Below, in pieces: positions 7,362-36,370 of a stretch of DNA of 64,000 nucleotides; within the stretch, counting starts at the first letter, position 1, and each line of letters opens with the position of its first letter. The translations under genes were made by a program, and so were the position numbers. A model generated the notes under the pieces. That model made no database searches, was not told where the DNA came from, and saw only the letters and a list, made by a program, of their open reading frames with translations. The stretch is from Vulcanimicrobiota bacterium (GTDB lineage: Bacteria > Pseudomonadota > Gammaproteobacteria > Xanthomonadales > Rhodanobacteraceae): positions 1-64,000 of the forward strand of contig CAJCJD010000180.1 of assembly GCA_903970555.1 (NCBI GenBank). Reading direction: 5' to 3'.

Positions 7362-7387
7362 GCAGACGACCGGACTAGGAGACATTC

Positions 7388-8332
7388 ATGAGCAAGATTC
7401 TGGTTATCGCCGAACATCTGGGCGGCAAATTGAACTCCTCCACTGCGCGCGCCGTGAGCGCTGCCGCGGCGGTGAAACCCGAAGCCATCGACGTATTGGT
7501 GCTCGCTGACAACGTCGATGCGATTGCGGCCGACGCCGCGAAAATCGAAGGTGTAAGCCGCGTGCTAACTGTTGCGCGTGCCGAAAACGCGCACCCGCTG
7601 GCCGCCGTACTCGCACCGCAGATCGCCAAAGCCGCCGCTGGCTACACCCACGTGTTCGTACCATCGACCACGTTCGGCAAGGACGTCGCACCACGCGTTG
7701 CAGCGTTACTTGGCGTGGCACAAGTCAGCGACGTGATGAGCGTCGAAGGCAGCCATACGTTCAAGCGGCCCATCTACGCCGGCAACGCCATCATCACAGT
7801 GGAAGCCGATGCCGCCCATGCGGTGGTCGCCACCATCCGTACTGCTTCCTGGTCAGCCGCTGGCAACGGCGCAAGCAGCGCATCGATCGAGGCGCTGAGC
7901 CTGGACGTCACGCTGCCCACGCACACGCGTTTTGTCGAACTCAAGCAGGGCAAGAGTGATCGTCCCGACCTACAGAGCGCCAGCAAGGTGGTCTCCGGTG
8001 GCCGCGGCGTCGGTTCGAAAGAAAACTTCGAGATCATCTACAAGTTCGCCGACAAGATCGGCGCGGCCGTGGGTGCTTCCCGCGCTGCCGTCGACGCGGG
8101 TTATGTGCCCAACGAAATGCAGGTGGGCCAGACCGGCAAGATCATTGCGCCCGAACTGTATATGGCTATCGGAATCTCCGGCGCCATCCAGCACCTGACC
8201 GGCATCAAGGATGCAGGCACCATCGTCGCGATCAACAAGGATGGCGAGGCGCCGATCTTTGAAGTGGCGGATATCGGCCTGGTTGGCGATCTGTTTAAAT
8301 TGATTCCCGAGCTTGAGCAAGCACTGGGCTGA
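7388..8332 (+). CDS. etfA: Electron transfer flavoprotein alpha subunit
   Basis: FAD-carrying alpha subunit of ETF, partner of EtfB. The 314-residue protein has the C-terminal FAD domain signature: [12 protein letters not shown] near 200, then [44 protein letters not shown], ending with [22 protein letters not shown]. Length is typical. AGGAGA directly upstream serves as ribosome binding site. It forms an operon with etfB and is followed by a perfect 11-bp hairpin. In Xanthomonas the LPS locus begins next to etfA; the same is seen here. Confidence 0.97.
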
Positions 8333-10343: not shown

Positions 10344-12281
10344 ATGATCATCCAAGACATATCTAAGGAACATCGCATCCCCCTCCCCGCCGCCCGTGAC
10401 CTTGGCATCGTTTGGATTGTGGCTTTAGGGGTTCTCGCGGGCGTGCTCATTCCCGTAACGGGACTTCTCGCAGGGTCACAAGATGGTGATGGGATTCTTA
10501 CGGCACTAATCTCGACTCAAAAGTTGACCTGGTATTTCTGGGGACAGGATCGACTGCTCAACTTCATTCCGGCCATTGCCAGTCCTATCGCGAACATCGA
10601 GTGGAATCTTCGTCTTCAGATCTTTCTGCGGGCGTTCTTTGCCTTCCTAGCCCCGACAGGATTGCTGTATTTCTTCAATCAGTCGACAAGATTCATCGCC
10701 TTTGCAGTCGCGCTTACCAATTTCCTAATCGCGCTGACGTTTAGCTCGCAGGCATTATCCAATCTTTACGTCGAGCCGAACCCGTTTGGCACATCCCTTG
10801 TGCTACTAGCCCTTTCTCTCGCCGCCTTTCGCCAAGGGGATACGAAAGTACGCTGGGTCCTCGCATCACTTCTCGTAGGCTTTTTCGCTTACGCCACAAA
10901 CTTCGCCCTACTATCCTATTCTTTTCCGGTCATTGGCATTGCATTTTTGACGGGGACACTACCTCGCAGGCAGCTTCTAGGTTTTTTCGTCATCAATATT
11001 TTTTGCGTGATGCTCGCTTACGAGCACTCCAAGCATTTTGGGCACGGCATTACACCGTTTAACCGTCTGCACATTTCTGGAGAAGCCGTGGCCGGCGGCT
11101 ACCTCTCTGTCGCAGCAAATGTTTCATGGATGAGCCTGCTCGCACTCGGCCTTTTCGCCATCGTCTTTGGTTGTCTGGTTCATCCGCCTCATTTCATGTC
11201 AGCGCTGCTAATGATGGTGGCGTCCATTGCACTTATCGGCATTTTATCCTGCTCAATATGGACTCAAATTAACAACTATCACATTCGTTACTACATCGTG
11301 TTTGTGATTTCCTTCATTTCAGTAATCAGCTACCTTTTTTCCGTGCGGCTTTATCCAATTTTACGAAATCGAAGGCTGGATATTCCATCAAGCGCTACGC
11401 TGCTATTTGTTGAAGTAGCCTTCAAGCTTCATGGCATATCGCCTGACTATGCCCAACTTATCAACATGACTTGGCGTAATCGTTCGCGCGCGGTGGCCGA
11501 AGCAGCTGTTATCAACAGGGCTCAGCTGATCATTGGTGATTTCTGGGACGTATGGCCCGCAGTGCTCGACGCACTCACCTTATCCAGCGACGGCAAGGTT
11601 TATGGCGCGACCTTCCGCGGTGACGAACTGACTCGTCGCATACAACGCTTAGCCCAGGACGAGCACGGCATTCGAGTGATTTGCTTTCATACGACGATCG
11701 CAGCATGTGAGGATGACGCGTCAAGCGGTCTTCATGTCCAGACATCTGTTGTTCCCGGGTCAGCCAATAAGATCACCGTCGAAAACCGAGAGATGTTACT
11801 CGCAACAATGACCTTCCCTCCGCCGCACGACGTCAAGACTCTACCCCGGTTAAATGCGACGCAGGCCCGTAGCACCCTTAGCATTGCCGGTGACCCTACG
11901 TTTACGCCCGATGCGGGTACGCTTCGCATACCTGTCGAGCTCAGCAACCTGGGAACGGTTGAATTTACTTCCGAAGGCGTTCACCCGATTGATTTGGGCG
12001 TCCAACTACTTTCCACCAGTGGGAAAGTGGAAAAGGTAGATTTCATCAGAACCACGATCCCTGACATCGCACCAGGGGGCCAAGCGCTGGTGAATATCAG
12101 CGTGCCCATGACTGAGATCAGCGATCGCATCCTGCTTATCCTTCCGATACAAGAAGGCGTATCTTGGTTTGATCATTTCGGTGTAAAGGGGCTCATAATT
12201 GGACCGTTCCACGCGTGCTCAAATGACAGCCGCCCTTGGATGTGCGACGCCTCTGGCCACGCATTGCGCGCGAGCATGTAG
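10344..12281 (+). CDS. Polytopic membrane protein with C-terminal VQE-x-V-x-W-F-like domain (Gtr-type candidate)
   Basis: A 645-residue protein I cannot place in a named family. Around ten hydrophobic helices fill residues 15-345, followed by a soluble region. Residues 365-500 form an unassigned domain. Residues 535-640 form a beta-rich module (IPVELSNLG ... IAPGGQALVNISVP ... PIQEGVSWF) that clearly resembles the C-terminal modules of the membrane protein at 19869-21923 and the sulfotransferase at 24335-26008. Its position directly behind GtrA and GtrB-like genes suggests it is the third Gtr component, the GT-C enzyme that transfers the polyprenyl-linked sugar in the periplasm. That assignment is inference from context. 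Confidence 0.7.
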   Translation: MIIQDISKEHRIPLPAARDLGIVWIVALGVLAGVLIPVTGLLAGSQDGDGILTALISTQKLTWYFWGQDRLLNFIPAIASPIANIEWNLRLQIFLRAFFAFLAPTGLLYFFNQSTRFIAFAVALTNFLIALTFSSQALSNLYVEPNPFGTSLVLLALSLAAFRQGDTKVRWVLASLLVGFFAYATNFALLSYSFPVIGIAFLTGTLPRRQLLGFFVINIFCVMLAYEHSKHFGHGITPFNRLHISGEAVAGGYLSVAANVSWMSLLALGLFAIVFGCLVHPPHFMSALLMMVASIALIGILSCSIWTQINNYHIRYYIVFVISFISVISYLFSVRLYPILRNRRLDIPSSATLLFVEVAFKLHGISPDYAQLINMTWRNRSRAVAEAAVINRAQLIIGDFWDVWPAVLDALTLSSDGKVYGATFRGDELTRRIQRLAQDEHGIRVICFHTTIAACEDDASSGLHVQTSVVPGSANKITVENREMLLATMTFPPPHDVKTLPRLNATQARSTLSIAGDPTFTPDAGTLRIPVELSNLGTVEFTSEGVHPIDLGVQLLSTSGKVEKVDFIRTTIPDIAPGGQALVNISVPMTEISDRILLILPIQEGVSWFDHFGVKGLIIGPFHACSNDSRPWMCDASGHALRASM

Positions 12282-12315: not shown

Positions 12316-13488
12316 TTATGCGCCTAAGATTCTGCGTGTCGCGTCCATCACTCGGCCCACATCCCCGTCAGACATTGCTGGTGACAAAGGAATGCTGACG
12401 GTCTCACGACCCAGCTTCATGGCGTTCGGCCACTGCTCTGGACGCCACGAGAATTGCTGTTGATAGTAAGGATGTTCCGGAATGGATAGGTAATGCACAC
12501 CCGTGCCGATCCGAGCCGCGTTCATCGCCTCGAGAAATTCATCACGCTCAATGCCACATTGCTTGGCATCGATCATCACCGTATAAAGATGCCGGCCGTG
12601 GCGGGTATTGCTCTGTGCCAGGGCCGGTAACGTGATCGGAAGCTGGGCAAATGCCTCATCGTAACGCTGCCATATCTCAGAGCGCCGACGCCAGTTTTGC
12701 TCGACCCGTGCAAGCTGATGCAATCCGATGGCAGCCTGTAGATCCATCATGTTGTATTTGAAACCGCACTCGACAACTTGATAGTGCTTATAACCCTTGT
12801 CGCCGAAGCGGTGCCAGGCATCCTTGCTCATACCGTGCAGCGCCAGGATGCGTGCCCGCGCCAACTGATCCTCGCTACGGCCCAGGATCATGCCGCCCTC
12901 GCCCGTCACAAGATTTTTGGTGACATAGAAACTAAAGCAACCAAAATCACCGAAGGTACCTAGCGGCCGCCCGTCGAATTCGGCCTCTACAGCGTGTGCG
13001 CAATCCTCGATGACCACAAGGTTGTGTTTGCGCGCAATGGCCATGATCTGATCCATCGCACACGGTCGCCCAGCGAAATGCACGGGCAAAATTGCACGCG
13101 TACGGGGCGTAATCGCTGCTTCGATGGCATCGGGATCGATGTTCTGCGTTAGTGGATCGACATCGGCAAGCACCGGCACGAGGCCTGCATGCAGGATCGC
13201 ATTGACGGTGGCACAAAAGGTCAGCGGTGTCGTGATGACTTCCGAGCCCGGCTCGATATCTGCCGCCAGCATGCTCACGTGCAACGCCGCGGTGCAGGAA
13301 TTGACCGCTGCAACCTGGGTGTCCTGAACGCCACGGAATGCCGCGAAATCTCGCTCGAACTGCGCAACGCGTGGCCCGGTGCCGAGCCAGCCAGAACGGA
13401 GGCATGCCACGACCTCGTCGATCTCCCCCTCATCGATCTGAGGTGCACCGAAGACCAGAAAGGGAGGCTGTGTTAGCTCTGCACTCAT
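12316..13488 (-). CDS. DegT/DnrJ/EryC1-type PLP-dependent aminotransferase
   Basis: A 390-residue aminotransferase of the sugar-nucleotide class (ArnB, QdtB, FdtB and relatives) that would transfer an amino group from glutamate to a keto-sugar nucleotide. Typical features are GSGWLGTGPRV-like N-terminal region, NSCTAALHVSM, TPLTFCAT, VIEDCAHAVEAEFDG (cofactor-ring Asp) and the PLP-lysine in FYVTKNLVTGEGG near residue 190. The ATG at 13488 is preferred; an upstream TTG at 13509 is also possible. It follows cysNC by 27 bp and is probably the last gene of the cysD-cysNC operon. No matching keto-sugar synthase lies beside it; RfbB at 52405 could supply the dTDP-keto sugar. Confidence 0.88.
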   Translation of the reverse strand: MSAELTQPPFLVFGAPQIDEGEIDEVVACLRSGWLGTGPRVAQFERDFAAFRGVQDTQVAAVNSCTAALHVSMLAADIEPGSEVITTPLTFCATVNAILHAGLVPVLADVDPLTQNIDPDAIEAAITPRTRAILPVHFAGRPCAMDQIMAIARKHNLVVIEDCAHAVEAEFDGRPLGTFGDFGCFSFYVTKNLVTGEGGMILGRSEDQLARARILALHGMSKDAWHRFGDKGYKHYQVVECGFKYNMMDLQAAIGLHQLARVEQNWRRRSEIWQRYDEAFAQLPITLPALAQSNTRHGRHLYTVMIDAKQCGIERDEFLEAMNAARIGTGVHYLSIPEHPYYQQQFSWRPEQWPNAMKLGRETVSIPLSPAMSDGDVGRVMDATRRILGA

Positions 13489-13515
13489 ATCGACATCGGC
13501 ACCCGGCAATGCTGC

Positions 13516-15372
13516 TTAGTGATTCGCATGTAACAACACGCGCTTGGCAAGTCGCTCCACCATCGCCTCAAGCTCCGTCCCTCGCGTGCGCAGATGCACT
13601 TCCGGCGTTTCCGGCACTTCATAGGGTGAATCGATACCCGTGAAATTGCTGATCTCGCCCGCACGCGCCTTACGATAAAGGCCTTTCGGATCGCGCCGCT
13701 CGCACTCTTCCAACGGCGTATCCACGAATACCTCGATGAACTCGCCATCAGAGAACAAACTACGAGCAAATTCGCGTTCGCCGCGAAATGGCGAAATGAC
13801 ACAAACCAGCACGATCAACCCGGCATCGACCATCAGGTGTGCCACTTCGGCCACACGGCGTACGTTCTCGACGCGCGCCTCGGCTGTGAACCCAAGATCA
13901 CGATTCAGGCCGTGGCGAAGATTATCGCCATCCAGAAGGTAGGTGTGGTAACCGAGCGCACTCAGACGCCGTTCCAGCAAGTTGGCAATGGTCGATTTGC
14001 CAGCGCCGGACAAACCGGTGAACCACAAACAACGTGGCTGCTGCCCCTTGCTTCCCGCACGTACTTGCTTATCGATGTCCAAGTGCTGCCAGTGCACATT
14101 GGTCGCGCGGTGCAGCGCGAAGTCGAGCATGCCGCAAGCCACTGTGGCATTGTTCTGCCGATCGATGAGGATGAAGCCGCCGAGCGCGGGATTAGTCGCG
14201 TAGGCTTCGAATGCGATCGGATGATCGAGATCGATGTTGCAATAGCCCACTTCGTTCAATTGCAGACGATGCGCGGCCAAACTAGCCTGCGTATTCACGT
14301 CAACTTTGTGCTTAATCGATGTGACGCGCGCATTGACAACTTTGGCTCCGATCTTCAGCCAGTAGCCACGGTTAGGAAGCAATGGCTCGTCGCCCATCCA
14401 TAACAGATGCGCAGCGAATTGATCGGCCTCCGGCGCTGGGCGCGCGGCGTCCGCGATCACATCGCCACGGCTGATGTCCACCTCGCGATCCAAGGTCAAC
14501 GTTACCGCTTGGCCCGCATGTGCTTGTGGCAGATCACCGTCCGCCGTCACGATGCGTGCGATGCGCGCGCGATGCGCGCCGGGCTGCACCACGATTTCGT
14601 CACCGGCCCTCACGCGGCCACCGCAGATGGTGCCCGCATAGCCACGGAAAGACTGGTCCGGACGATTGACCCATTGCACCGGCATGCGAAAATCGGTGGC
14701 CTCAAGCGGCTCGATACTGATGGTTTCAAGCAGGTCTAGCAGTGTCGGCCCGACGTACCATGGCATGTGGCTGGAAGCAGCGCCAACGTTGTCACCGCTC
14801 AACGCAGCAACCGGTAGCGCGTGAACGGCCATAATACCTAGCTGCTCGGCCAGATCGGCGTAGGCCACCCTTATCGAATCGTAGATGTCTTTTTTGTAAT
14901 CGACGAGATCCATCTTGTTGACTGCAAGAATGATCTTTCGTATGCCCAGTAACGCGCAGATGTAGGTATGCCGGCGTGTCTGTGCAAGCAAGCCCTTGCG
15001 CGCGTCCACCAACACCACTGCCAGATCTGCGTGCGACGCGCCGGTCGCCATATTGCGCGTGTACTGCTCATGCCCCGGGCAATCTGCGACGACATAGCTG
15101 CGCCGTGCGCTATGGAAATAACGGTAAGCCACGTCGATGGTAATGCCCTGCTGGCGCTCCGCATCGAGGCCGTCCGTCAACAATGAAAAATCCAGCGCAT
15201 CGCCACGTGGATATTGCCTGAGGCTATCGCGTCGCAGAGCCTCGACCTGATCATCCGGCAGCATGCCTGCATCGTACAAAAGCCGACCGAGCAGCGTGCT
15301 CTTGCCATCATCAACGCTACCGCAGGTGATGAAACGCAGCAGGCTGCGCGCTGGAAAATCGATAGCAGTCAT
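13516..15372 (-). CDS. cysN: Bifunctional sulfate adenylyltransferase subunit 1 / adenylylsulfate kinase (CysN-CysC)
   Basis: A 618-residue fusion. The N-terminal GTPase part (CysN) has G1 [17 protein letters not shown] (G3) and NKMDLVD (G4), driving ATP sulfurylase in complex with CysD. The C-terminal part (from about 440) is an APS kinase with P-loop [19 protein letters not shown] and the FTGIDSPYE motif, so the protein makes PAPS. Its ATG shares one base with the cysD stop, indicating coupling. PAPS serves sulfate reduction generally, but the locus lacks cysH/cysIJ and contains two sulfotransferases, so a role in glycan sulfation is likely. Confidence 0.96.
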
Positions 15373-16277
15373 CAGAAATAGCCTTCCTGCTTCTTGCGCT
15401 CCATCGAAGCAGAAGGATCGTGGTCGATGACCCGCCCCTGGCGCTCGGACGAACGCGACTCAACCATTTCAGCAATGACTTCATCCAGCGTACTTGCAGT
15501 GGACTCGACCGCACCCGTCAATGGATAACAACCAAGCGTACGGAAGCGCACCATGCGCAGCTCAACTTTCTCGCCGTCGCGCAACGTAAAGCGATCGTCA
15601 TCGACCATGATCAACGCACCATCGCGTGATACGACCGGACGCTCCTTGGCGAAGTAAAGTGGCACGACGGGAATCCCTTCGCGCCGGATGTAGTGCCAAA
15701 CATCCATCTCCGTCCAATTGGACATGGGGAATACACGCACGCTCTCATCTTTGTGGATGTAAGTGTTGTAGAGGTTCCACAACTCCGGGCGCTGGCGCTT
15801 TGGATCCCAGCGGTGCTGAGCATTACGAAAGGAGAAGACGCGCTCCTTGGCACGCGATTTCTCCTCGTCGCGGCGTGCGCCGCCAATGGCAGCGTCGAAT
15901 CCGTATTTGTCGAGCGCCTGCTTGAGTGCGGCCGTCTTCATCACGTCGGTGTGCACGGCTGCTCCATGGACCAAAGGCGAGATGCCTTGCCGCACACCAT
16001 CCTCATTGATATGCACCAGGAGCTGAACTCCACCGGAGGCGGCCACCTGGTCTCGAAACGAGATCATCTCGCGAAACTTCCAAGTGGTGTCCACGTGCAG
16101 CAGCGGGATAGGAGGACGCGCTGGGTAGAAAGCCTTTCGCAGCAGGTGCAGCAATACCGACGAGTCCTTGCCGATCGAGTACAGCATGACCGGGCGCTGG
16201 AAGCCTGCCGCCACCTCGCGAAAGATGTGGATGCTTTCGGCTTCCAGTTTGTCCAGGTGACCTGAAAATGAACTCAT
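15372..16277 (-). CDS. cysD: Sulfate adenylyltransferase subunit 2
   Basis: A 301-residue catalytic subunit of ATP sulfurylase that forms APS from ATP and sulfate with CysN. The PP-loop [12 protein letters not shown], the segment [15 protein letters not shown] and the C-terminal [16 protein letters not shown] are all diagnostic. The ATG at 16277 is preferred because GGAAG lies just upstream and the length matches E. coli CysD; an ATG eight codons earlier (16301) has no ribosome binding site. It is first in the minus-strand cysD-cysNC-aminotransferase operon and divergent from ugd. Confidence 0.97.
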
Positions 16278-16656
16278 CTGGCTTCCGCAGGTGAATGACA
16301 TCGAATTTTGCCACGACTCGCCAGATATGGTGGTAGGCCATTCGCATCGGAATAGAGAAGAGAAATTCGCCCGCTCGTCACGATTGGAGTGGGTCCTGGC
16401 CCAGGCTCAAGCCTTGACCCACTATTCACGCTGGAGGCCTCCTCCCCGCATACATGCCTGGCGGACCGGCTTTCGGTAGGGAAGGGCCTGAACAGTCTTC
16501 GTATAAACTTTCGTCCAGACGCCGAACGCACCTATCGAACCTGCAGATATTGCCCACAGAAATCTACAAATATGGCATGCTCAACAACGATTTGTGCAGA
16601 CTGAGGGGCTGTCTGTACATTTGTAACACAGCCACATATAGCCACCAGGGAATCAA
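16278..16656. promoter_or_regulatory. Divergent intergenic region, cysD / ugd
   Basis: About 380 bp between the divergent cysD and ugd starts, so it must carry promoters in both directions. It is A+T richer close to ugd. AGGGAA lies shortly before the ugd ATG as ribosome binding site. I could not define promoter hexamers or a CysB site with confidence, and see no gene in it. Confidence 0.45.
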
Positions 16657-17979
16657 ATGAAAGTAACAGTAATCGGATCAGGCTACGTGGGCTTGGTCAC
16701 GGGCGCCTGCCTATCGGAGATGGGAAATGACGTCCTCTGCTTCGATGTCGACCGCAAGAAAATCGACCTGCTGAACAACGGCGGCGTGCCGATCCATGAG
16801 CCCGGGCTCGCGGAACTGATTCATCGCAACGTCGCTGCGGGCCGCCTGCAGTTCAACACCGATCCGATTGCTGCCGCTGCCCATGGGGTCCTCCAGTTCA
16901 TTGCCGTCGGCACCCCCCCCGATGAAGACGGATCTGCGGATCTCAAATACGTGCTCGCGGCGGCGAAAAGTATCGGCCAGCACATGAACGAATATAAGGT
17001 CGTGGTCGACAAATCCACGGTGCCGGTCGGCACGGCGGACAAGGTGACCGCGGCAATCGCCGACGAACTGGCTCAGCGCGGGGTCGAAATTCCCTACACG
17101 GTTGTCTCGAATCCCGAGTTCCTCAAGGAAGGTGCGGCCATCGAAGACTTCATGAGCCCCGATCGCGTCGTGATCGGCTCGGAGGAACCTCGCGCCATCG
17201 AGCTGATGCGCGCGTTGTATGCCCCCTACGTGCGCAACCACGAGCGGTTCCTGGTGATGAACACGCGCTCGGCCGAGCTGACCAAGTATGCGGCCAACTC
17301 GATGTTGGCCACCCGCATCAGCTTCATGAATGAGCTTGCTGAACTGGCGGAACACACGGGCGCGGACATCGAGTCCGTTCGCCTGGGGATCGGATCGGAT
17401 TCCCGTATCGGCTATTCGTTCTTGTATGCCGGATGTGGCTACGGCGGCTCGTGCTTTCCCAAGGACGTCAAGGCGCTCATCAAAACCGCCAACGGCTATG
17501 GGCACTCCCTAGGCATCCTCAGTGCGGTCGAGGAGGCAAACAACCGGCAGAAGCATCTGCTCGCCAAGAAGGCAAAATCAGCACTCGGCGGTCATTTGAG
17601 TGGCCGACATTTCGCCCTATGGGGCCTGGCATTCAAGCCCAACACAGACGATATGCGAGAAGCGGCAAGCCGCGAAATCATTGCCGACCTGCTCGCCGAG
17701 GGCGCCACCGTCACTGCCTACGACCCGGTTGCCGTGGAAGAGGCGCAGCGCATCTACCAGGGCGAGAAACGCATCACTTTTACCAACCATCCGCTGGCAG
17801 CGTGTCAGGGCGCCGATGCCCTGCTTATCGCTACGGAATGGAAAGAATTCCGCAATCCCGACTTTGATGCGATCAAGAACAAGCTGCGTCAACCGATCAT
17901 TATTGACGGGCGGAATTTGTACAGCCCGGCGGCCATTCGGCAGCTGGGTTTCACCTATCACTCCATCGGTCGACACTGA
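16657..17979 (+). CDS. ugd: UDP-glucose 6-dehydrogenase
   Basis: Oxidises UDP-glucose to UDP-glucuronate with two NAD+. The 440-residue protein begins [21 protein letters not shown]-type Rossmann motif, has [10 protein letters not shown] near 122, [11 protein letters not shown] near 156 and the catalytic-cysteine segment [12 protein letters not shown] near 262. Length is typical for bacterial Ugd. It is followed after 15 bp by UDP-glucuronate decarboxylase, its natural partner for making UDP-xylose. Confidence 0.97.
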
Positions 17980-17994
17980 GAGCACGATCCGGAC

Positions 17995-18948
17995 ATGAGC
18001 TATCAACAAGCCCCCAAAGTACTTGTCACCGGCGGAGCCGGTTTCCTCGGATCTCACCTTTGCGACCGATTGATCGCGCGCGGCGAAGATGTATTGTGTG
18101 TCGACAACTTCTACACCGGCAGCAAGCGTAACGTCGATCAACTGATCGACCATCATCGCTTCGAGCTGATGCGGCATGACGTTACCTTTCCGCTCTACGT
18201 CGAGGTCAATCGCATCTTCAACCTGGCGTGCCCGGCCTCTCCCATTCACTACCAGCACGATCCGGTGCAGACGACCAAGACTAGCGTGCACGGCGCTATC
18301 AACATGCTGGGCCTGGCCAAGCGCGTCGGCGCGCGGATTCTTCAAGCGTCCACCAGCGAGGTCTACGGCGATCCGGAAGTGCATCCGCAAACGGAAGAAT
18401 ACTGGGGCCGCGTCAATCCCATAGGCATTCGCAGTTGCTACGACGAAGGCAAGCGCTGCGCCGAAACGCTGTTCTTCGATTACCGTCGCCAGCACAATCT
18501 TGAAATCAAGGTCGTACGCATCTTCAACACCTACGGCCCTCGCATGCATCCCCATGATGGCCGGGTGGTGAGCAACTTCATTGTGCAGGCACTGCAGGGC
18601 GAAGACATCACGATCTATGGCGATGGTAGCCAGACGCGCAGCTTCTGCTATGTCGACGATCTGGTCGAGGCGATGCTACGCACCATGGATACGGCCGCCG
18701 AATTCACCGGCCCGGTAAACATAGGCAATCCGGGTGAATTCACCATGATCGAACTCGCCGAACTAGTGCTGCGCCTGACGGGTAGCAAGTCAAAGCTGGT
18801 GCGTCAGCCGCTTCCACAAGACGACCCCAAGCAACGCCAACCGGACATCTCACTTGCCAAGTCGGCCCTGGGCTGGGAGCCCAAGGTATCGCTTGAGGAT
18901 GGACTCAAAGAAACCATCGCTTACTTCAAAAGGCTGCTGCAGGCATGA
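17995..18948 (+). CDS. UDP-glucuronate decarboxylase (UDP-xylose synthase)
   Basis: Extended short-chain dehydrogenase of 317 residues that converts UDP-glucuronate to UDP-xylose. NAD-binding [10 protein letters not shown] near 14, the UXS-typical [12 protein letters not shown] near 79, [14 protein letters not shown] near 120 and the YDEGK catalytic pair near 148 are present. The family-typical late segment [13 protein letters not shown] is also seen. It lacks any membrane anchor. It overlaps the next GT2 gene by ATGA. Xylose is known in Xanthomonas O-antigens, consistent with use here. Confidence 0.95.
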
Positions 18949-19634
18949 AACTCTCCGTCGTCATCCCCTGCTATAACGAGGAAAAGACGATTCGAACCAT
19001 CGTTGATGCCGTGAGCGCCTCGCCGTACGAATTCAAGGAAATCATCATCGTCGACGATTGTTCGCGCGATAACACCCGCGCGATCCTCGAAAGTGAGGTC
19101 GCCCCCCTGGTCGACAAAATCCTGTATCACGAGGTCAACCAGGGAAAGGGCGCGGCACTGCGTACAGGCATCCTGGCTGCGACTGGCGATATCGTCGTCA
19201 TCCAGGATGCGGACTTGGAATACGACCCTAACGAATACCCGCTTCTCGTGGAGCCCATACTTAATGACAAAGCTGACGTCGTGTTCGGCTCCCGCTTCAT
19301 GGGTGGGCAGCCGCATCGGGTGCTCTATTTTTGGCATCGCGTGGGCAACGGTCTCCTGACCCTGCTCTCCAACATGTTCACCAACTTGGACCTCAGCGAT
19401 ATGGAGACCTGCTACAAGGTCTTTCGCAGGGAGATCATCCAAGGTATTTCCATCGAGGAAAACCGGTTCGGCTTTGAGCCTGAAATCACCGCCAAAATCG
19501 CCAAGACGCGGTGTCGCATCTACGAAGTGGGCATTTCCTATTACGGACGCACCTACGAGGAAGGTAAAAAAATCGGCTGGAAGGATGGCTTTCGCGCGCT
19601 CTACTGCATCGTGAAATACAACCTGTTTCGATGA
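18945..19634 (+). CDS. GT2 polyprenyl-phosphate glycosyltransferase (DPM1-like)
   Basis: A compact 229-residue GT2 enzyme without transmembrane helices, related to dolichol-phosphate mannose synthase: [32 protein letters not shown], the metal site [10 protein letters not shown] near 83, GSRFMGG and [10 protein letters not shown]. It should form undecaprenyl-phosphate-sugar at the cytoplasmic face. It is translationally coupled to UDP-xylose synthase (ATGA), so UDP-xylose is a reasonable donor guess. The GT-C-like membrane protein at 19869 could use its product. Confidence 0.88.
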
Positions 19635-19691
19635 AGTCCGCCCGTTTCTCGTTCGAGGGCGAAAGTATGGCCGCCCTTCAATTGCGTCTAC

Positions 19692-19835
19692 TTACCTTTT
19701 TGTCGATGGTTCCCAGGCCGCTAGCGTCTTGAGCTCCCTGGCAACCTCCGCACTGCCGTAAAAGACGCAATCGGCACCCCATGCCCTGACCGCGCCCTGA
19801 CGGCCCTTCTCGGGGTAGACCTGACCAGGCAACAT
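19692..19835 (-). pseudogene. Remnant of an unidentified minus-strand coding sequence
   Basis: On the minus strand 47 codons read MLPGQVYPEKGRQGAV and continue as AWGADCVFYGSAEVAREL to a TAA. The residue pattern looks like protein rather than a chance frame, but a stop codon lies three codons before the ATG and nothing related continues upstream. It is best read as the C-terminal scrap of a lost gene. I do not recognise the family. Confidence 0.35.
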
Positions 19836-19868
19836 GAGCGCATGACGCGCTCACCAAGGGAAATAAAG

Positions 19869-21923
19869 ATGGTGCGCGCAGATACCATGAGTCGATCCAG
19901 ATGGCTGGCCGTATGGCCCGTTGCGCTGTTGGCTCTCATTGGTATATGCGGGTATCTACTGGAGGTCACGCATTGGTTCACCATGGTACCTGGCGACCTG
20001 GGTGACCCAAGGTTCAATAGCGTCATACTCGAACACTTCTATCAGTGGCTACTGGGAAAGAGCGCCAGCCTTTGGTCGCCGGAATTCTTTTACCCTTATC
20101 CCTATGCACTCGCATTCAGCGACGATCATTTTGGAACAGCGTGGATCTATGCCATAGCACGCTTTGCCGGCTTGTCTAGAGAAACCGGCTTTGATGCGTG
20201 GTTCTGCGTTGGCTTTTTGCTCAGCTACTTCTGTTGCGCCTATGCGATGCGCAAATTCGGGTTCAGTTGGCACGCCACCGCCGTGGCGGCTTTTGTATTT
20301 GCCTTTTCACCCCCCATTCTTGCGCAGGAAGTGCATGCGCAGCTCATTTATCGATATGCGATTCCGCTTGCGATATTCGAGCTTTGGCAGATTCTGGAGT
20401 TGCGCCGCATCGACCGTATGCCGTGGCTGGGCATTTGGGTGGCCATTCAGTTTTTCTGCTCCATCTATCTCGGCTTTTTTCTAGTCATGCTTGCAGGCGC
20501 AATCTCGGTCGCGAGCGTCTTTGCGTCAATCGTCTCTGATCACCCATCACAGCCGCCACGAACCGGACAGCGTCACACGCTTCAAATCGGCGTCACCGTG
20601 GTGTCGGCAATACTCTGGGTCGGCCTGCTGCTCATGCTCCGGCGGTATCATTCGGTTGCGAAAATGTACGGATTCGCTCACGCGACCGACGAAATCAGCA
20701 CGATGCTCCCGCGCATAAGCAGCTATTTCATCGCGGACAGGTCAACAATAGATGCGTGGGTCGGTGGCTGGGTAACCAACATCCCCATGCGTCACGAACA
20801 TCAAATGTTTTTTGGGCTGCTCGCCTGCGTCCTGGCCGCAATCGGTGTGGTGCTGGGCCGCAAATCAGCGCAGTGGTCGCGCCATGTAGCGATCTTTACC
20901 CTGGCACTTCTTGCCCTAATTGCAATCACGCTGTCGGTAAATGGCCATTCGCTCTATCGTCTCGTGATGGCACTTCCTGGCTTCAATTCCATACGTGCTG
21001 TCACCCGTATTGCGATAGTCATGCTGCTACCTGTGGCTTTGCTTTCGGCCATAGGAGTCCAAACCATTGCGGGCCGCTTTCCAAACTTGCGCACCCCACT
21101 TTTCCTCACGATCACGGCGCTGCTTGCGGTGCAACTGATCGGCTTCCAGGCCATGCAAGTTCCAATCGTGAAATGGCGCGAACGCCTGAACGTCCTTACC
21201 GCCGGCTCAGAAATCCCCAGAAGCGGAAGTCACCCTATCCTTTTCGCGTTCGACAACGCACCTGAATCTTGGGTCCACATTTATAGGGAGCTGGACGGCA
21301 TGGTGCTCGCTCAAGACCTTGGCGCGCCCACGGCGAATGGATACTCGGGTAATCTTCCCGCGTATTTCGGCTCCGTAGATTCCTGTATGACTGCAGCGCA
21401 ACGATTGGCGAACGGGGCAGCTTTCAAGCGACTGCCGCCATCTGATTTATCGGACATGTTGCGTCGCATTTACGTGCTCCCGGTCAATGCCGACTGCCCT
21501 GACTTTTCAACATTGAAACCGTATAGCGGCGCTCTACCGGACAGCGTATTCCACAACGTATCCATTGCCATAATGGACCAAAAAGCGGCCGGACTCTGGT
21601 ACGCCGTCACGATCCAAGTGGAGAATCACAGTTCGTTCTATTTGCCCGCAATATCGACGAATGACGAAGCTGTACAGCTTTCTTGGCAATTCGTCCCGCA
21701 AGGTCGCACGCCAACTGAAGATGCATGGACCACCCGAGCTCCCTTGGAAACCGATATTCCTGCTGGTGGGAGTGCTAGCCAGAATATAAAAGTTGCCCCG
21801 CCGATTGTGCCTGGACATTACACGCTCGTCTTCTCACTCGTGCAGGACAAAGTTGCCTGGTTCCATGAGAAGGGCATGAAGTTAGCCGTGAGCGGTACGC
21901 CCATTGATGTGCGTAGTCCGTGA
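19869..21923 (+). CDS. GT-C-like polytopic membrane protein with C-terminal VQD-x-V-A-W-F domain
   Basis: A 684-residue protein with about eleven hydrophobic helices in residues 5-450 and an extracytoplasmic C terminus. After the first helix a loop reads GDLGDPRFNSVILEH, resembling the acidic first loop of GT-C glycosyltransferases. Residues about 575-684 form a beta-type module (VTIQVENHS ... IPAGGSASQNIKVAPP ... FSLVQDKVAWF) shared with the proteins at 10344-12281 and 24335-26008. The ATG at 19869 is chosen because AAGGGA precedes it by seven bases; a start nine codons earlier has none. Likely transfers the lipid-linked sugar made by the upstream GT2 enzyme; this is inference. Confidence 0.72.
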   Translation: MVRADTMSRSRWLAVWPVALLALIGICGYLLEVTHWFTMVPGDLGDPRFNSVILEHFYQWLLGKSASLWSPEFFYPYPYALAFSDDHFGTAWIYAIARFAGLSRETGFDAWFCVGFLLSYFCCAYAMRKFGFSWHATAVAAFVFAFSPPILAQEVHAQLIYRYAIPLAIFELWQILELRRIDRMPWLGIWVAIQFFCSIYLGFFLVMLAGAISVASVFASIVSDHPSQPPRTGQRHTLQIGVTVVSAILWVGLLLMLRRYHSVAKMYGFAHATDEISTMLPRISSYFIADRSTIDAWVGGWVTNIPMRHEHQMFFGLLACVLAAIGVVLGRKSAQWSRHVAIFTLALLALIAITLSVNGHSLYRLVMALPGFNSIRAVTRIAIVMLLPVALLSAIGVQTIAGRFPNLRTPLFLTITALLAVQLIGFQAMQVPIVKWRERLNVLTAGSEIPRSGSHPILFAFDNAPESWVHIYRELDGMVLAQDLGAPTANGYSGNLPAYFGSVDSCMTAAQRLANGAAFKRLPPSDLSDMLRRIYVLPVNADCPDFSTLKPYSGALPDSVFHNVSIAIMDQKAAGLWYAVTIQVENHSSFYLPAISTNDEAVQLSWQFVPQGRTPTEDAWTTRAPLETDIPAGGSASQNIKVAPPIVPGHYTLVFSLVQDKVAWFHEKGMKLAVSGTPIDVRSP

Positions 21924-22009
21924 CCTGAGAATCGCAACGAACGCATGTGTGCTCTAACGTGCAGATGCCCCGTCTGTCCACGAATTCGTACTGCTGGAAC
22001 TAATCCGGT

Positions 22010-22030
22010 TGTCGAATCCCCGTAAATTCA
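22010..22030 (+). repeat. Left terminal inverted repeat of IS3-family element
   Basis: TGTCGAATCCCCGTAAATTC plus one A; matches the complement of the right end at 23192-23211 except for one substitution and one inserted A. Confidence 0.8.
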
Positions 22031-22082
22031 CACCACGCATAACTAGAGGTCTCCGGGCAAACTAGCCCCAAGGAGACCCACG

Positions 22083-22349
22083 ATGCGCAAGAGCAAGTTC
22101 ACCGAAAGTCAGATCGTCACGACGTTAAAGCAGGTCGAAGGTGGCCGGCAGGTCAAAGATGTATGCCGTGAGGCGGGGATTTCCGAGGCGACCTATTACA
22201 CCTGGAAGTCCAAGTACGGTGGGATGGAAGCATCAGACGTGCAGCGGCTGCGGGACATCGAGGCGGAACATGCCAAGCTCAAACGGATGCACGCCGAGCT
22301 GGCCATGGAGAACCACGCGCTGAAGGATCTCATTGCAAAAAAGCGGTAG
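22083..22349 (+). CDS. IS3-family transposase OrfA
   Basis: An 88-residue DNA-binding protein: helix-turn-helix region MRKSKFTESQIV ... VCREAGISEATYYTWKSKYGG, then a leucine-zipper-like tail (DIEAEHAKLKRMHAELAMENHALK). AAGGAG lies nine bases before the ATG. Near its 3' end the heptamer AAAAAAG at 22337-22343 is the standard IS3 -1 slippage site that would make the OrfAB fusion. OrfA is intact, but its partner is broken. Confidence 0.92.
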   Translation: MRKSKFTESQIVTTLKQVEGGRQVKDVCREAGISEATYYTWKSKYGGMEASDVQRLRDIEAEHAKLKRMHAELAMENHALKDLIAKKR

Positions 22350-23194
22350 ACCCGGCGCACAAGCGCCCGCTCATCACGTGGTTGAAGGAAAGCCATGGTT
22401 GGAGCGAGCGTCGGGCTTGCATGGCGGTCGGGCTGTCGCGGTCCACGGTGCGCTATCGGCGTCGCAGCGATCGTGATGAGGAAGTGATCGCGCTGCTGGC
22501 GGAGTTAGCCGAACGTTTTCCTGATCGAGAATTCGACAAGCTGTTTCAGTTGATCCGTCGACGCGGTCTGATCTGGAACCACAAGAGGGTCTGGCGTGTG
22601 TACTGTCTGATGCAGCTCAATCGCCGTCGTCGTGGCAAGAGGCGGATACCCAACCGGCATCCGCTGCCGTTGATCGCAGGCGAGCAGATCAACACCAGTT
22701 GGTCAATCGCCTTTATGTCCGATGCATTATGGGATGGCCGACGGTTTCGCACCTTCAATGTCATCGACGACTTTACTTGTGAGGCCTTGGCGGTGGAGAT
22801 CGACCTGAATCTGCCGGTGGCGCGCGTGATTCGCACGTTGGAACGCATCGCGGCCTGGCGTGGCGTGGCGTGGCGCGGCTACCTTACAAGGCTTCGCCTG
22901 GACAACGCCCTGAATTTGTCGCGCTAGCTTTGGCCGAATGGGCTGAGCGTAAAGGCATCGCGCTGGACTTCATCGAGCCTGGCCGCCCCATGCAGAACGG
23001 TTTCATCGAACGCTTCAATGGCAGCTACCGCCGTGGCGTGCTGGACATGCACGTATTCCGCACGCTGAGCGAGGTGCGCGAACACACCGAGCAATGGTTG
23101 GCTGATAATCCCCCATGACAGCCTCGGCGGCCTCACGCCTGCCGATTTTCGACTTCAAAATGAGCCGGTGACCTCTGATTTAGTTTGGCATTGA
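22338..23194 (+). pseudogene. IS3-family transposase OrfB, disrupted
   Basis: The integrase-like part is read in the -1 frame after the slippage site (AVDPAHKRPLITWLKESHGW ...). Several lesions are visible. The first catalytic Asp of the DDE triad is replaced: NTSWSIAFMSDALWDG where relatives have an Asp after WSM. A short tandem GTGGC expansion lies near 22858-22875. One G is missing near 22906, turning the DNGPEF motif out of frame and giving a stop at 22925. The next frame runs FVALALAEWAERKG ... FIERFNGSYRR ... WLADNPP and stops again, while the final HDSLGGLTPADFRLQNEP is in a third register before TGA at 23192. It cannot make active transposase. Confidence 0.88.
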
Positions 23195-23211
23195 ATTACG
23201 GGGAGTCGACA
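23192..23211 (+). repeat. Right terminal inverted repeat of IS3-family element
   Basis: TGAATTACGGGGAGTCGACA, the inverted counterpart of the left end at 22010-22030. It contains the GGGGAG that now sits at ribosome-binding distance from the ATG at 23213. Confidence 0.8.
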
Positions 23212-23212
23212 C

Positions 23213-23338
23213 ATGCAACGGGGCTTCATCGAGCGCCTCAACGGCAACCACCACCGTGACGTGCTCGATATGCGTGCATTCCGTTCACTCAGCGAAGTGC
23301 TGGCGCACGAACAATGGCTGGCCAACTACAGCCATGAA
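23213..23338 (+). pseudogene. Second IS3 OrfB remnant, fused to sulfotransferase
   Basis: Forty-two codons reading MQRGFIERLNGNHHRD ... LDMRAFRSLSEV ... EQWLANYSHE. This corresponds to the C-terminal part of an IS3 OrfB around the catalytic Glu (compare MQNGFIERFNGSYRRG ... LDMHVFRTLSEV ... EQWLADN in the neighbouring element). It is a different copy with its own substitutions. It joins the downstream sulfotransferase without a stop. Confidence 0.85.
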
Positions 23339-24259
23339 ATGGCCCATAAAAGCCATGCACGATATAAAAAATTTTCTATTGCGGATCAATCAGAGATGCT
23401 GAAGGAAATAAGGGAAAAGTGCCTGCGATACAACTCCCATCCAGAATTCTCTGTAATTCTTGATAGGTTAGAACAGCTTTTTGCCGAGCTTTCCACTCTA
23501 GATCGCACGTCATCACCGCCTAATTCATATAATCCCAAGACACTAGGAAATGAGCCAAAAAAAGGCTACGTAATATGCATCACACCTAGGAGCGGCAGCA
23601 CTCTGCTTTCCTCGGCACTGTCGGAACAAACACTCAGGGGCCATGTTGGGCTGGGATATCCGGGGGAAATCTTCAACCTCGGATTCATCAAACCAAGAGC
23701 CATGCATTACGGATGTCGCTCCATTGATGAGTACACCAAGTGGGCTCTGTGGGAAAGTACCGACAAGTCGGGTGTCTTTGCAGTCAAAGGTGACCTGTTC
23801 CAACTTTTACCCTTTTTGCTAACCCCGACCTTTCAGCACTTTCTTCCCAACACAAAGTTCATTTACCTAACGAGAGAAGATGCATTGCTTCAAGCGATCT
23901 CGTTCGTCATTGCTCAACACACGGGAAAATGGACTTCTGAAAGCATAGTAAGTGGTCGTTACGAAGAAAATTTCGAAGAAATTTGCACCAATGTTGAACT
24001 CATAGCTCAGATGATGAGCAGCTTTGAAAAGCTCTTTTCATTTTCAAATATAGCCCCGTGCCAAATATTCACCAGCGACGTGGAAAACAATCTCGCTTCC
24101 ACAATAAAAAAGGTAATTAATTTTGTAGACGCGCCTATCGCAGAGCACACGATACAGCTACGCGTACAAACGTCGCGAATCCGTGATGAAGTTAATGAAG
24201 TGCTGAAGAAGGCGGTCGTGTCAAAGCTCTCCCTTTATGTCCCGAACAATCACATGTAA
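23213..24259 (+). CDS. Stf0-type sulfotransferase with IS-derived N terminus
   Basis: Sulfotransferase related to the Stf0 trehalose sulfotransferase family, transferring sulfate from PAPS to a carbohydrate. The PAPS 5'-phosphosulfate loop is ITPRSGSTLLSSAL (about residues 122-135), followed by GYPGEIFN; the 3'-phosphate region is YLTREDALLQAISFVIAQHTGKW near 222. The open frame is 348 residues, but the first 42 derive from a transposase remnant. The native start is probably at or before MLKEIREK (23396), or lost. As it stands, GGGGAG in the IS end could serve the ATG at 23213. The gene is clearly more A+T rich than its surroundings, indicating transfer. PAPS would come from cysD-cysNC. Confidence 0.82.
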   Translation: MQRGFIERLNGNHHRDVLDMRAFRSLSEVLAHEQWLANYSHEMAHKSHARYKKFSIADQSEMLKEIREKCLRYNSHPEFSVILDRLEQLFAELSTLDRTSSPPNSYNPKTLGNEPKKGYVICITPRSGSTLLSSALSEQTLRGHVGLGYPGEIFNLGFIKPRAMHYGCRSIDEYTKWALWESTDKSGVFAVKGDLFQLLPFLLTPTFQHFLPNTKFIYLTREDALLQAISFVIAQHTGKWTSESIVSGRYEENFEEICTNVELIAQMMSSFEKLFSFSNIAPCQIFTSDVENNLASTIKKVINFVDAPIAEHTIQLRVQTSRIRDEVNEVLKKAVVSKLSLYVPNNHM

Positions 24260-24334
24260 CAGCCGCCAGCCAAGGACATTAGCGTCACGATGAATGAAAC
24301 GGTCGCGCGCATTCAGTCCCCAAACCTGTCCCAA

Positions 24335-26008
24335 TCAGCCGAGCTCTACCGAAATGACGCGCGCCGCATCCGGGTTTTTATCGACAAACCATGCGACGGC
24401 CTCCTGAACCAACGAAATCACTAATCGCAATGACCTAGGTTCGCTAGGCACGCTGATTTGCATGGGAACGACAACGGCCTTACCGGGAAGAACGTCGGAT
24501 GGAAGACGGGTGCGTACCCCATCCGCGACAACGACCTTTCCACTCTTTGTCAGCCAGCGATAGGTAAGCATCACGGATTGCTTCCCAGATGCCGCCCATG
24601 CTTCCCGGCTAATATTCTCGACACGCACAGGCACACAGATATCCATGTCTGGGAAGACATTTTCTATGCGGGAAGCGGGCGTAATCGCAGATTTGAATTG
24701 AGTCAGCGGCTTATTCGAGCGACCCAGTGACCTGACCTGGCTACCGGCCGATACGTAGCGCTTGCTTTCGCATACGGAGTCGCTCGTGGCTGCTTCCAAG
24801 GAAGCATCGGCGTCCATAAGGATATGCCCTTCAAAGTGGGTGACAATGCTGTCGTGCACCTTGAATGATGCGATATCTTCCTGCCAGTGATAACAACCAA
24901 GATAGTGGTTCTCACTTTTCATGAGTGCCGCGTCTACGCGATAGTTACCCCTCGGCATGCGATTTAGCATATTGAACCGCACGACATACTCGCCCTGCGT
25001 CAGCGAATGGACATGCCCAAGCCGCATGGAATCGGTGCCGAATACAAGCAAGCCGCGTTCGTCTTTAATGGCGATGCTGGCGTTTAGAGTATCAATGGGC
25101 TCATTCGACTTAATTTTAAGTAAAATGTTGAAATACTCTCCGACCATGGCGAGAGAGCCACCGGAGATTTCTCCAACAACACTGGCTTCCTCGATGACAC
25201 AACTCCTATCACCAAACTCCACCGCGCTTTCGCTGCGCACTGGCTCGCACTCCAATGCGCCGCTGGATATCGGCCGCCCGGCATCTTCAGCAGGGGCCAA
25301 GGCAATCGATCGGCTGAGAAATTCTCTGCGTGATGCTTGAAAGCGCGATTTGGCGTATTGATACAGTTCGAGCTCATGTGAAAAAAGCGCGCTCAGCTTC
25401 TGCACATGCTGTGGAGATAGCGATTCAACCTTCATGCGCTGCGACGTGACGTTTTTCAACTTGAGCGGGACATATTCCCAACCAAATTTCGCATCCAGCA
25501 TGCATGCAAGATCTTCCAACTCCTCCTGCAAACCTATCAATTCAAACGAATCGACAGCCTTGATGGCCGCGTCAAACTTTTCGTCCAACGAAAGAATTGT
25601 TCGCGAAGAAGTACCCAATGGATAGAGCATTGCAATTTGCGCCGCCATGCCGTCCCGGTCATTGAGCGAGAGCTGGTCTAAATGGGCATCAAGGCTCAGA
25701 CCATGCAGCCTGGTATCGATAAGACGATCGGCGCAGTCAATTTTGTGATAGAAATATTCCGATAAGAAACGATCAAAGGGATGACGTAGAACGGTGATAC
25801 AGCACCGATCCTGGGGAAGTCGATCGCCTTGTTGCAGCGAAAAATGGCCGCTAACCACATCAAGATAATCAAACTGCACCAACGCGTCTTTCAAGCGCAG
25901 ACCTACAATGGTGTCCGATACACGCTCTTTGCCGAGGTGTTCGATTAAATGATGCTGTATGGCAATGCCGCCCGTCTTGGGAATATGAAAGTGCAGGATT
26001 TTTTTCAT
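24335..26008 (-). CDS. Sulfotransferase fused to Wzt-C-like and VQE-x-V-A-W-F domains
   Basis: A 557-residue three-part protein. Residues 1-235: sulfotransferase with PAPS loop HFHIPKTGG near 7-15 and the 3'-phosphate segment VLRHPFDRFLSEY near 75. Residues about 265-390: a domain that resembles the C-terminal glycan-binding domain of Wzt (GEYFNILLKI ... LVFGTDSMRLG ... GEYVVRFNML ... GNYRVDAALM ... YHWQEDIASFKV). Residues about 455-555: a beta-type module (PVRVENISREAW ... VLPGKAVVVPMQISVP ... ISLVQEAVAWF) shared with two membrane proteins in this locus. The local Wzt lacks its own C-terminal domain. Predicted to sulfate the exported glycan, perhaps recognising the chain itself. It is the last gene on the long minus-strand run. 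Confidence 0.83.
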   Translation of the reverse strand: MKKILHFHIPKTGGIAIQHHLIEHLGKERVSDTIVGLRLKDALVQFDYLDVVSGHFSLQQGDRLPQDRCCITVLRHPFDRFLSEYFYHKIDCADRLIDTRLHGLSLDAHLDQLSLNDRDGMAAQIAMLYPLGTSSRTILSLDEKFDAAIKAVDSFELIGLQEELEDLACMLDAKFGWEYVPLKLKNVTSQRMKVESLSPQHVQKLSALFSHELELYQYAKSRFQASRREFLSRSIALAPAEDAGRPISSGALECEPVRSESAVEFGDRSCVIEEASVVGEISGGSLAMVGEYFNILLKIKSNEPIDTLNASIAIKDERGLLVFGTDSMRLGHVHSLTQGEYVVRFNMLNRMPRGNYRVDAALMKSENHYLGCYHWQEDIASFKVHDSIVTHFEGHILMDADASLEAATSDSVCESKRYVSAGSQVRSLGRSNKPLTQFKSAITPASRIENVFPDMDICVPVRVENISREAWAASGKQSVMLTYRWLTKSGKVVVADGVRTRLPSDVLPGKAVVVPMQISVPSEPRSLRLVISLVQEAVAWFVDKNPDAARVISVELG

Positions 26009-28730: not shown

Positions 28731-29846
28731 TTATCCCTTTTGAATATCTTGCTCACCTAAAAGAACGGATCGCTTCTGTCCGTAGGTCTTATCGAACGAG
28801 AAGCTGGCTGCTGATGCACGGGCGATATGACGTCTATCAACTTTGCCATCCGCCATTTTGCACATCAGCTCCGCGGTCTTATGCAGGTCCTTATTGCTCG
28901 TAAATGTTACGCCCGGGAGACCGGAAAAAATCTCTACCAGAACATCTAACTCATTTAACAAAACGGGGCACCCACAACACAACGCTTCAGCTATGGGCAA
29001 TCCAAAGGCTTCATAGTCAGTCAAAAGCACGAAGATTGCTGATTTTTGATAGAGCTCTGCCAAGGCTTCCTGACTCACGTACCCCAGTCCCATCACGACA
29101 TGGGCTATTTCACTCGGGATATCCAACCTATCTGAGCCTCTCCCTCCCAAGACCAGTCTCAGCGAAGGATCACGTTTATACGCGAGCGAAAACGCTGCGA
29201 GTAGCGCATCAACGCGTTTGCGTGCTTCCGCGCAATCGCATACACACAGAATCTGTTTCGCGTCGAAATCAGAAGATCCTGGCTTATAGACGCCGGTGTC
29301 GACCCCGAGGGGGATGTAATGGACGCTCCGCAGATCGACATCTTGAAATTCCGGCAGCATAGACTCACTAGGAGAGTCTATGAACACGAAATCAGACGCC
29401 CTGAGCGTTTCTGAAAACACAGCAGACGTCATGAAATAACGCTCATGCCCATGCAGCGTCCATATCGGCTGTGAGTGCGGTGTAAAGACCAGCTTGAAAC
29501 TGTCATTTTTGCATGACAACAAGCTTAAATTTGTTGAACCATTTGCCCATGAAATGCATTCAACATAGTCGTAGTAATTTTTATTCAAATGCTCAGCAAT
29601 ATCTCTAACACCACTATCGATGCAGCCAGCCATCAGGCAACTTCTGGAAGGGTATAGCTTGATATCCTCCTTCTCGCAGAAACCTTTAACAATTTTGTAG
29701 TTGAGGTCGATCAGCGTATCCATTAACACCGAAAACTGAAAATCTTCTTTGGCATACCTCATCCAGTCAAAGATTGCGGTACCGGTCCCCGAATACATCT
29801 GGCAGCTAGACGCTATAACCATCAGGTAAGAAGGCTTATGTTTCAT
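28731..29846 (-). CDS. GT4-family glycosyltransferase
   Basis: A 371-residue predicted GT-B enzyme. N-terminal half is divergent (MVIASSCQMYSGTGTAIFDWM), with a QILCVCDCAEARKRVDALL segment near 195 in place of the usual GRLxxxKG and a good donor-side motif LTDYEAFGLPIAEALCCGCPVL near 282. More A+T-rich than the cys and nucleotide-sugar genes, which suggests a different origin. It overlaps the FkbM methyltransferase stop by ATGA and precedes the next glycosyltransferase closely. Confidence 0.82.
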   Translation of the reverse strand: MKHKPSYLMVIASSCQMYSGTGTAIFDWMRYAKEDFQFSVLMDTLIDLNYKIVKGFCEKEDIKLYPSRSCLMAGCIDSGVRDIAEHLNKNYYDYVECISWANGSTNLSLLSCKNDSFKLVFTPHSQPIWTLHGHERYFMTSAVFSETLRASDFVFIDSPSESMLPEFQDVDLRSVHYIPLGVDTGVYKPGSSDFDAKQILCVCDCAEARKRVDALLAAFSLAYKRDPSLRLVLGGRGSDRLDIPSEIAHVVMGLGYVSQEALAELYQKSAIFVLLTDYEAFGLPIAEALCCGCPVLLNELDVLVEIFSGLPGVTFTSNKDLHKTAELMCKMADGKVDRRHIARASAASFSFDKTYGQKRSVLLGEQDIQKG

Positions 29847-32783: not shown

Positions 32784-32890
32784 TTGTACCGATGAACCAC
32801 TGAAGGTGATGATGTTCAAGTTTAAACCAGCGTGTCACAGGGCATGCCTGCGACGGGTTTTCGCAACTTATTGCGCCCAAGTGAGGCCGT

Positions 32891-34237: not shown

Positions 34238-34440
34238 CAGATTCTTCTCCTGCCGACAAATTAGCCGACTCAATTTCTACGCGAAGCAACATCGCGCAAG
34301 GACGACTGGAATTCCTGTAACCGCACCTTGTTTGCCGCACATGAACGTCACAGCGCAGGTTCGCCTGCGCAAGTTTGGTGGCCATCACGAGGCTGGCCCA
34401 TGGAACAACGCGGCATGATGTGGGCGACGCACAATGCTCA

Positions 34441-35334: not shown

Positions 35335-35335
35335 A

Positions 35336-36370
<1,035 letters not shown>

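Follow-up and report, generated by a model that had tools for sequence, protein, structure and literature searches.

A putative sulfotransferase fused to a Wzt-type domain, and PAPS synthesis genes kept without sulfate reduction, at the O-antigen locus of a Dyella-type bacterium

Loci for sulfated polysaccharides that combine cysDNC genes with sulfotransferase genes are already known, among them those for the capsules of the marine bacteria Vibrio sp. KMM 8419 (PMC11641403) and Cobetia marina KMM 1449 (PMC11766843), for which the accessible portions of the two reports describe a sulfated structure established by analysis. The 64,000-nucleotide stretch of DNA considered here (the window; contig C180 of the draft genome G000, 4.53 Mb and 91.7% complete) resembles both: each gammaproteobacterial cluster unites sulfotransferase genes and an ATP-binding cassette (ABC) exporter with cysD, cysN and cysC (in Cobetia, as in the window, with cysNC). 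Whereas the marine capsule loci have kps-type export and dTDP-L-rhamnose, the window has an O-antigen Wzm/Wzt locus with gmd and rmd; furthermore, its sulfotransferase is fused to a Wzt-type domain and its genome lacks sulfate reduction. No such fusion is mentioned in the accessible portions of either capsule report. As far as our searches go, what is new here is the fusion itself, its place in an O-antigen locus and a genome that has lost sulfate reduction. The published capsules soften a statement of the first-pass annotation of this DNA, that carbohydrate sulfation is rare in gammaproteobacterial O-antigens or capsules. We propose, with a probability of about 0.62, that the locus makes 3'-phosphoadenosine 5'-phosphosulfate (PAPS) and uses it to sulfate an ABC-exported, probably D-rhamnose-containing O-antigen; the gene content suggests that this bacterium decorates its surface sugars with sulfate.

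Other described systems share single parts of this arrangement. RaxP, RaxQ and RaxST of Xanthomonas likewise pair an ATP sulfurylase and an adenosine 5'-phosphosulfate (APS) kinase that feed PAPS to a sulfotransferase in a related family, but RaxST sulfates a peptide, with no glycan and, in the available text, no Wzt-type domain; its PAPS motifs comprise a basic residue, a serine and a His or Glu base (PMC6637879, PMC4216712). The wbsalmo locus of Aeromonas salmonicida, an ABC-type O-antigen cluster, carries a gene with a sulfotransferase domain directly after wzt, but the product is a 216-residue protein for which the consulted part of the report gives no fusion (PMC4483657). WbdD of Escherichia coli O9a modifies an ABC-exported O-antigen and also sets its chain length, but is a kinase/methyltransferase according to the sections available (PMC3482155). 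The titles and abstract openings listed from the open-access literature yielded no report of a sulfotransferase that carries a Wzt-type domain. Nothing in that literature joined Dyella, sulfate and O-antigen; for Dyella and sulfotransferase there was, by title, only strigolactone work.

The locus is flanked by etfBA (6615-8332) and a metB-like gene (41293-42639). Its PAPS synthesis genes, both intact in profile scans, stand on the minus strand: cysD, for the small subunit of ATP sulfurylase (15372-16301; PF01507, 188 bits; NCBIfam CysD PRK12563, 530.8 bits, cut-off 413), and cysNC, for the large subunit fused to APS kinase (13516-15372; PRK05506, 947.4 bits, cut-off 715; APS_kinase at residues 446-594). 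The exporter genes, also on the minus strand, are wzm, for an ABC-2 permease (31983-32819; PF01061, 55.4 bits), and wzt (31224-31967), for a 247-residue ABC ATPase that matches ABC_tran only and lacks Wzt_C; its top NCBIfam match among those listed is a galactan exporter, at 284 bits under the cut-off of 400. Because phosphomannomutase-like, rmd-like and gmd genes, assigned by homology (32891-36370, minus strand), belong to the cluster, GDP-D-rhamnose is the likely precursor. Thus PAPS synthesis genes, a sulfotransferase gene and an exporter share one polysaccharide cluster, and profile matches bear out the first-pass annotation's placing of cysD-cysNC, an Stf0-type open reading frame (ORF) and a sulfotransferase of HIPKTGG type in a Wzm/Wzt locus.

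In the pathway that we propose, CysD and CysNC would convert sulfate to PAPS, the Wzt-type domain of the fusion would hold the lipid-linked polymer in the cytoplasm, its heparan-sulfotransferase-like domain would pass the sulfate group of PAPS on to a hydroxyl of a sugar, and Wzm/Wzt would export the chain after sulfation. The genes and their domains, the missing sulfate-reduction genes, the conserved fusion and its association with rmd are seen in the sequences; we infer the enzyme activities, the acceptor, the position modified, the order of these steps and any contribution of the Stf0-type ORF. Should the proposal hold, soil bacteria would have a new type of O-antigen modification, and the enzyme might become a tool to sulfate bacterial polysaccharides.

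The case for PAPS serving surface-glycan sulfation, as the first-pass annotation had it, is strengthened by what the rest of the genome lacks. That annotation found cysD-cysNC without sulfate-reduction genes, and this holds for the whole assembly: sulfite reductase (PF01077) was not found in it, and the search for a PAPS/APS reductase with PF01507 gives a single match, the window cysD. Among the 16 genomes of the genus, PF01077 and two PF01507 genes occur in the same 14, all except G000 and G003. Five genus mates (G001, G006, G008, G009, G010) carry between glnE and cysB/cysG, apart from cysD-cysNC, an assimilatory operon, cysPUWA-cysJIH, with sulfate transport genes, cysJ, cysI, cysH and its own Sat/APS kinase fusion, confirmed by profiles in G001 (Sat/APS kinase 882.6 bits, cut-off 669). 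In G000, glnE and cysB are separated by only 118 bases inside contig C15, the cysPUWA-cysJIH-Sat operon is absent there, and cysG, in the adjoining contig C102, has an internal 1.07 kb missing; the two contigs share an exact 61-base end. An assembly gap as the cause of this absence was considered and is unlikely, given that glnE and cysB fall within the same contig, that C15 and C102 share an end and that the cysG deletion is internal. C15 stops about 1.2 kb past the glnE-cysB junction and a misassembly is conceivable, but G003, assembled in one contig, has the same loss. There slt637, the second gene beyond cysG, lies only 2.5 kb after glnE, so the deletion is larger than that of G000; its end points differ, and cysD-cysNC is retained in both genomes. 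The two are not sisters in our trees, which are small and weakly supported, and two independent losses are not proven. A SulP-type permease is still present (one match in G000, two in G003).

With the operon lost, no PF01077 and no second PF01507 gene, any PAPS made here therefore has no known reductive use; the genes leading from sulfate to cysteine have apparently been lost from this bacterium, which retains those for sulfate activation, so that the two jobs of PAPS would come apart in one organism. The first-pass annotation had itself raised the prospect that cysD-cysNC might be the only copy in the genome and serve cysteine synthesis alone. It is indeed the sole sulfurylase gene found in the assembly, and at 91.7% completeness a copy of the reductive genes moved to the missing part is conceivable, but neither cysH nor a sulfite reductase occurs in the assembly, the cysPUWA-cysJIH-Sat operon is absent from its usual place beside an internally deleted cysG, and G003 repeats the loss. 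We reject an exclusive role in cysteine synthesis on the absence of PF01077 and of a second PF01507 gene and on the glnE-cysB and cysG junctions, and regard it as scarcely credible.

The HIPKTGG protein (24335-26008, minus strand) proved to be a fusion of three parts, with Sulfotransfer_2 at residues 1-219 (PF03567, 28.5 bits, cut-off 22), Wzt_C at 264-387 (63.3 bits, cut-off 30.4) and an Ig/FW-like domain at about 436-557, for which no Pfam match was obtained at E <= 0.01. It is a sulfotransferase-type protein bearing its own O-antigen-type binding domain. In an alignment of eight sequences, position 11 is Lys in six and Arg in two, and H55, R75 and S83 are invariant in 8/8, so the PAPS-type motifs noted earlier are present in this protein. 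We take K/R11 to belong to the 5'-phosphosulfate loop, H55 to be the base, and R75 and S83 to be the R..S of the 3'-phosphate site. The fusion evolves under constraint, with a ratio of nonsynonymous to synonymous substitution rates (dN/dS) of 0.126 for the G009-G004 pair at dS 0.77; ratios for pairs that include G000 rest on saturated dS (2.0-2.7), and one pair yielded no value.

An AlphaFold2 model of the fusion, built from 6 sequences (mean predicted local distance difference test score 65.5, predicted template modelling score 0.42), was superposed on solved structures with VIA-align 2. Residues 1-236 lie on heparan sulfate 6-O-sulfotransferase with 3'-phosphoadenosine 5'-phosphate (PAP) and oligosaccharide (5t03; Z 14.4, 3.5 Å, 205 residues, 20% identity), and residues 1-248 on heparan sulfate 2-O-sulfotransferase (4ndz) with Z 16.5 but loosely, at 6.0 Å; the first ~236 residues thus appear to share a fold and a PAPS-type site with these animal enzymes. 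The middle domain (residues 265-396) superposes on the Aquifex Wzt domain (8dky; Z 14.4, 2.8 Å, 129 residues), to which the Wzt_C part is also matched by sequence (E 6.5e-10, 27% identity over 129 residues), and residues 436-557 superpose on the ILRUN FW domain (Z 9.8, 2.5 Å, 104 residues). In Aquifex aeolicus, as described in the accessible part of the source, a domain of this same fold sits on the transporter ATPase, where a Trp lids the cap sugar (PMC9445017), whereas here it sits on the sulfotransferase. W375 of the fusion, kept in 7/8 sequences, aligns with that Trp.

Eight relatives have the same three-part layout. Full-length copies occur in 7 of 147 family genomes (39-71% identity), a further one in Dyella sp. 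ASV21, and the named loci that carry it are all from Dyella (5/5), D. acidiphila 7MK23 and D. acidisoli NBRC 111980 being among these strains. A search of genome contigs with two short patterns matched 76 stretches, five of them fusion relatives. Across the class, 12 of 369 genomes matched, with full length in G000 only and single domains in the other 11, and plasmids gave one partial match. Searching genomes with PF03567 is insensitive for the fusion, as it picked out 4 of the 16 genus genomes. G003 was missed, although its copy shares 69% identity with that of the window and reaches 23.5 bits in a protein scan.

Moreover, the fusion tends to go together with rmd, a gene probably for D-rhamnose supply. 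A close rmd (E <= 1e-50) is found in 35 of the 147 family genomes, in 6/7 of those with the fusion vs 29/140 of those without it (Fisher p 7e-4), and in a genus draw of 12 genomes the fusion occurs in 5/5 with close rmd vs 0/7 without (p 0.0013); these statistics assume that the fusion and rmd draws cover the same 147 genomes. Fusions that are 69-71% alike pair with a short Wzt (247 residues in the window, 249 in G003, 250 in G008). A plain transfer of the Wzt_C domain from Wzt onto the sulfotransferase was considered and set aside, as it fits this one clade only: in G004, G009, G086 and G173, which also carry the fusion, the Wzt frames are 408-442 residues long and show Wzt_C-type matches.

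Several observations weigh against O-antigen sulfation as proposed here. The fusion-rmd associations are uncorrected for shared ancestry, a close rmd is missing from one genome with the fusion (G086), and both G003 and G008, though they have wzm, wzt, rmd and gmd, carry the fusion gene apart from them. As to G003, the ends of the island, etfBA-cysDNC-fusion and metB-gmd-rmd-pgm-wzm-wzt, are now ~1.2 Mb apart (L004/L037, L077), so a rearrangement split it. The PF03567 scores are weak: 28.5 bits in the window (vs 22), 28.1 in G008, and no match at E <= 0.001 for the L076 copy. Confidence in the AlphaFold2 model is only fair, Foldseek with this model listed 50 matches with no sulfotransferase among them, and a sequence search of solved structures gave no sulfotransferase match for the fusion or for the Stf0-type ORF. 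Such scores would suit a protein that binds O-antigen without being a working sulfotransferase, moving another group or only regulating chain length, and Aeromonas salmonicida offers a precedent, since its known O-antigen structure has, in the consulted part of the report, no sulfate to match the sulfotransferase-like gene beside wzt (PMC4483657). Conversely, the PAPS-site residues are kept in 8/8 with Lys or Arg at position 11, the modelled fold matches PAP-bound heparan sulfotransferases, and PAPS synthesis was kept after reduction was lost; we consider a fusion without sulfotransferase activity improbable.

The sole hint of a WbdD-like role in chain termination is the Wzt-type domain. The fusion might be a sulfate-based terminator in which this domain holds a D-rhamnan O-antigen by its non-reducing end and the sulfotransferase domain caps the same end, a variant that we consider improbable. 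If it were true, one enzyme would do what methyl, phosphate or 3-deoxy-D-manno-octulosonic acid caps plus a Wzt domain do elsewhere, and in two lineages of the genus this use of PAPS would have persisted after the entire pathway of sulfate reduction had gone.

The position of the operon by itself proves little, because in most genus mates cysD-cysNC stands at this locus border whatever sulfotransferase they carry. It is found in 16/16 genus genomes, including those without the fusion, and other possible PAPS users are present, with PF13469 matches in all 16 genomes, 13 in G000 and 2 in G003. Consequently, the lack of a reductive use does not single out the O-antigen, and the operon could be a general PAPS supply for sulfotransferases acting on proteins, lipids or small molecules, the O-antigen locus being merely its site. 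A point against this is that in 14/16 genus genomes, by our reading of the fetched stretches, cysD has a sulfotransferase-like gene no more than 17 kb away, a count for which no chance expectation was computed and which shared ancestry inflates. That gene is the fusion in G000, G003 and G009, a PF13469 enzyme of 416-463 residues in G001, G005, G006, G013, G014 and G015, and an HRSGTS-type protein, adjoining wzt or one gene away, in G002, G007, G010, G011 and G012 (under the Pfam cut-off in G002, G007 and G012). In G008, where ~10 kb to one side of cysD and 40 kb to the other were inspected, none was seen, nor was there one in G004 within ~10 kb either way. We rate a general supply as the whole explanation unlikely, though it deserves real weight; it is compatible with O-antigen sulfation, and both may hold. 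Sulfotransferase_3 genes abound in the genus, at 2 to 15 per genome, and several of them are frames of 500-700 residues; those of G000 lie on C156, C24, C80, C28 and other contigs, some in tandem on C24. Directly 3' of wzt, two other loci have frames of 1500 (L082:8344-12846) and 1705 residues (L084:8065-13182), of which the former combines WbsX, GT4 and GT2 glycosyltransferase domains with a weak sulfotransferase domain that falls below the cut-off.

The other sulfotransferase of the first-pass annotation fares less well. The Stf0-type ORF (23213-24259, plus strand), like the fusion, exceeds its Pfam cut-off (PF09037, 49.5 bits, cut-off 22). However, a transposase remnant, matching the transposase family rve_3 (residues 1-48), makes up about the first 48 residues. 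A decayed insertion sequence (IS) element of IS3 type (22010-23211; 47-nucleotide inverted arms 22010-22056 and 23165-23211, 72% complementary; weak HTH_21 and rve matches) ends at 23211, just before the ATG at 23213. For these two reasons the called start is probably wrong; the ORF may not be an intact gene, and its real start and expression are uncertain, a further point against the proposal. It scores 33.3 bits against the NCBIfam trehalose 2-sulfotransferase equivalog, far below the cut-off of 400, and matched eight plasmid records, seven only to its transposase part. Within 22010-23400 the second ORF of the IS3-type element is apparently frame-shifted; a further transposase tail is continuous, in frame, with the Stf0-type ORF.

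Other genes of the cluster include glycosyltransferase genes, an FkbM methyltransferase gene (29843-31066, minus strand; PF05050, 55.9 bits) and a UDP-glucose/GDP-mannose dehydrogenase plus epimerase-type gene (16657-18948). The last gene of the cysD-cysNC run encodes a DegT-type sugar aminotransferase (12316-13509, minus strand; PF01041, 410.9 bits) that reached no NCBIfam cut-off among the 25 matches listed; it adjoins cysNC in the window and in most genus mates. Two membrane proteins encoded in this locus likewise terminate in the Ig/FW-like domain found at the C-terminus of the fusion, at 36% and 32% identity (domain 11832-12170 in 10344-12281; domain 21603-21878 in 19842-21923).

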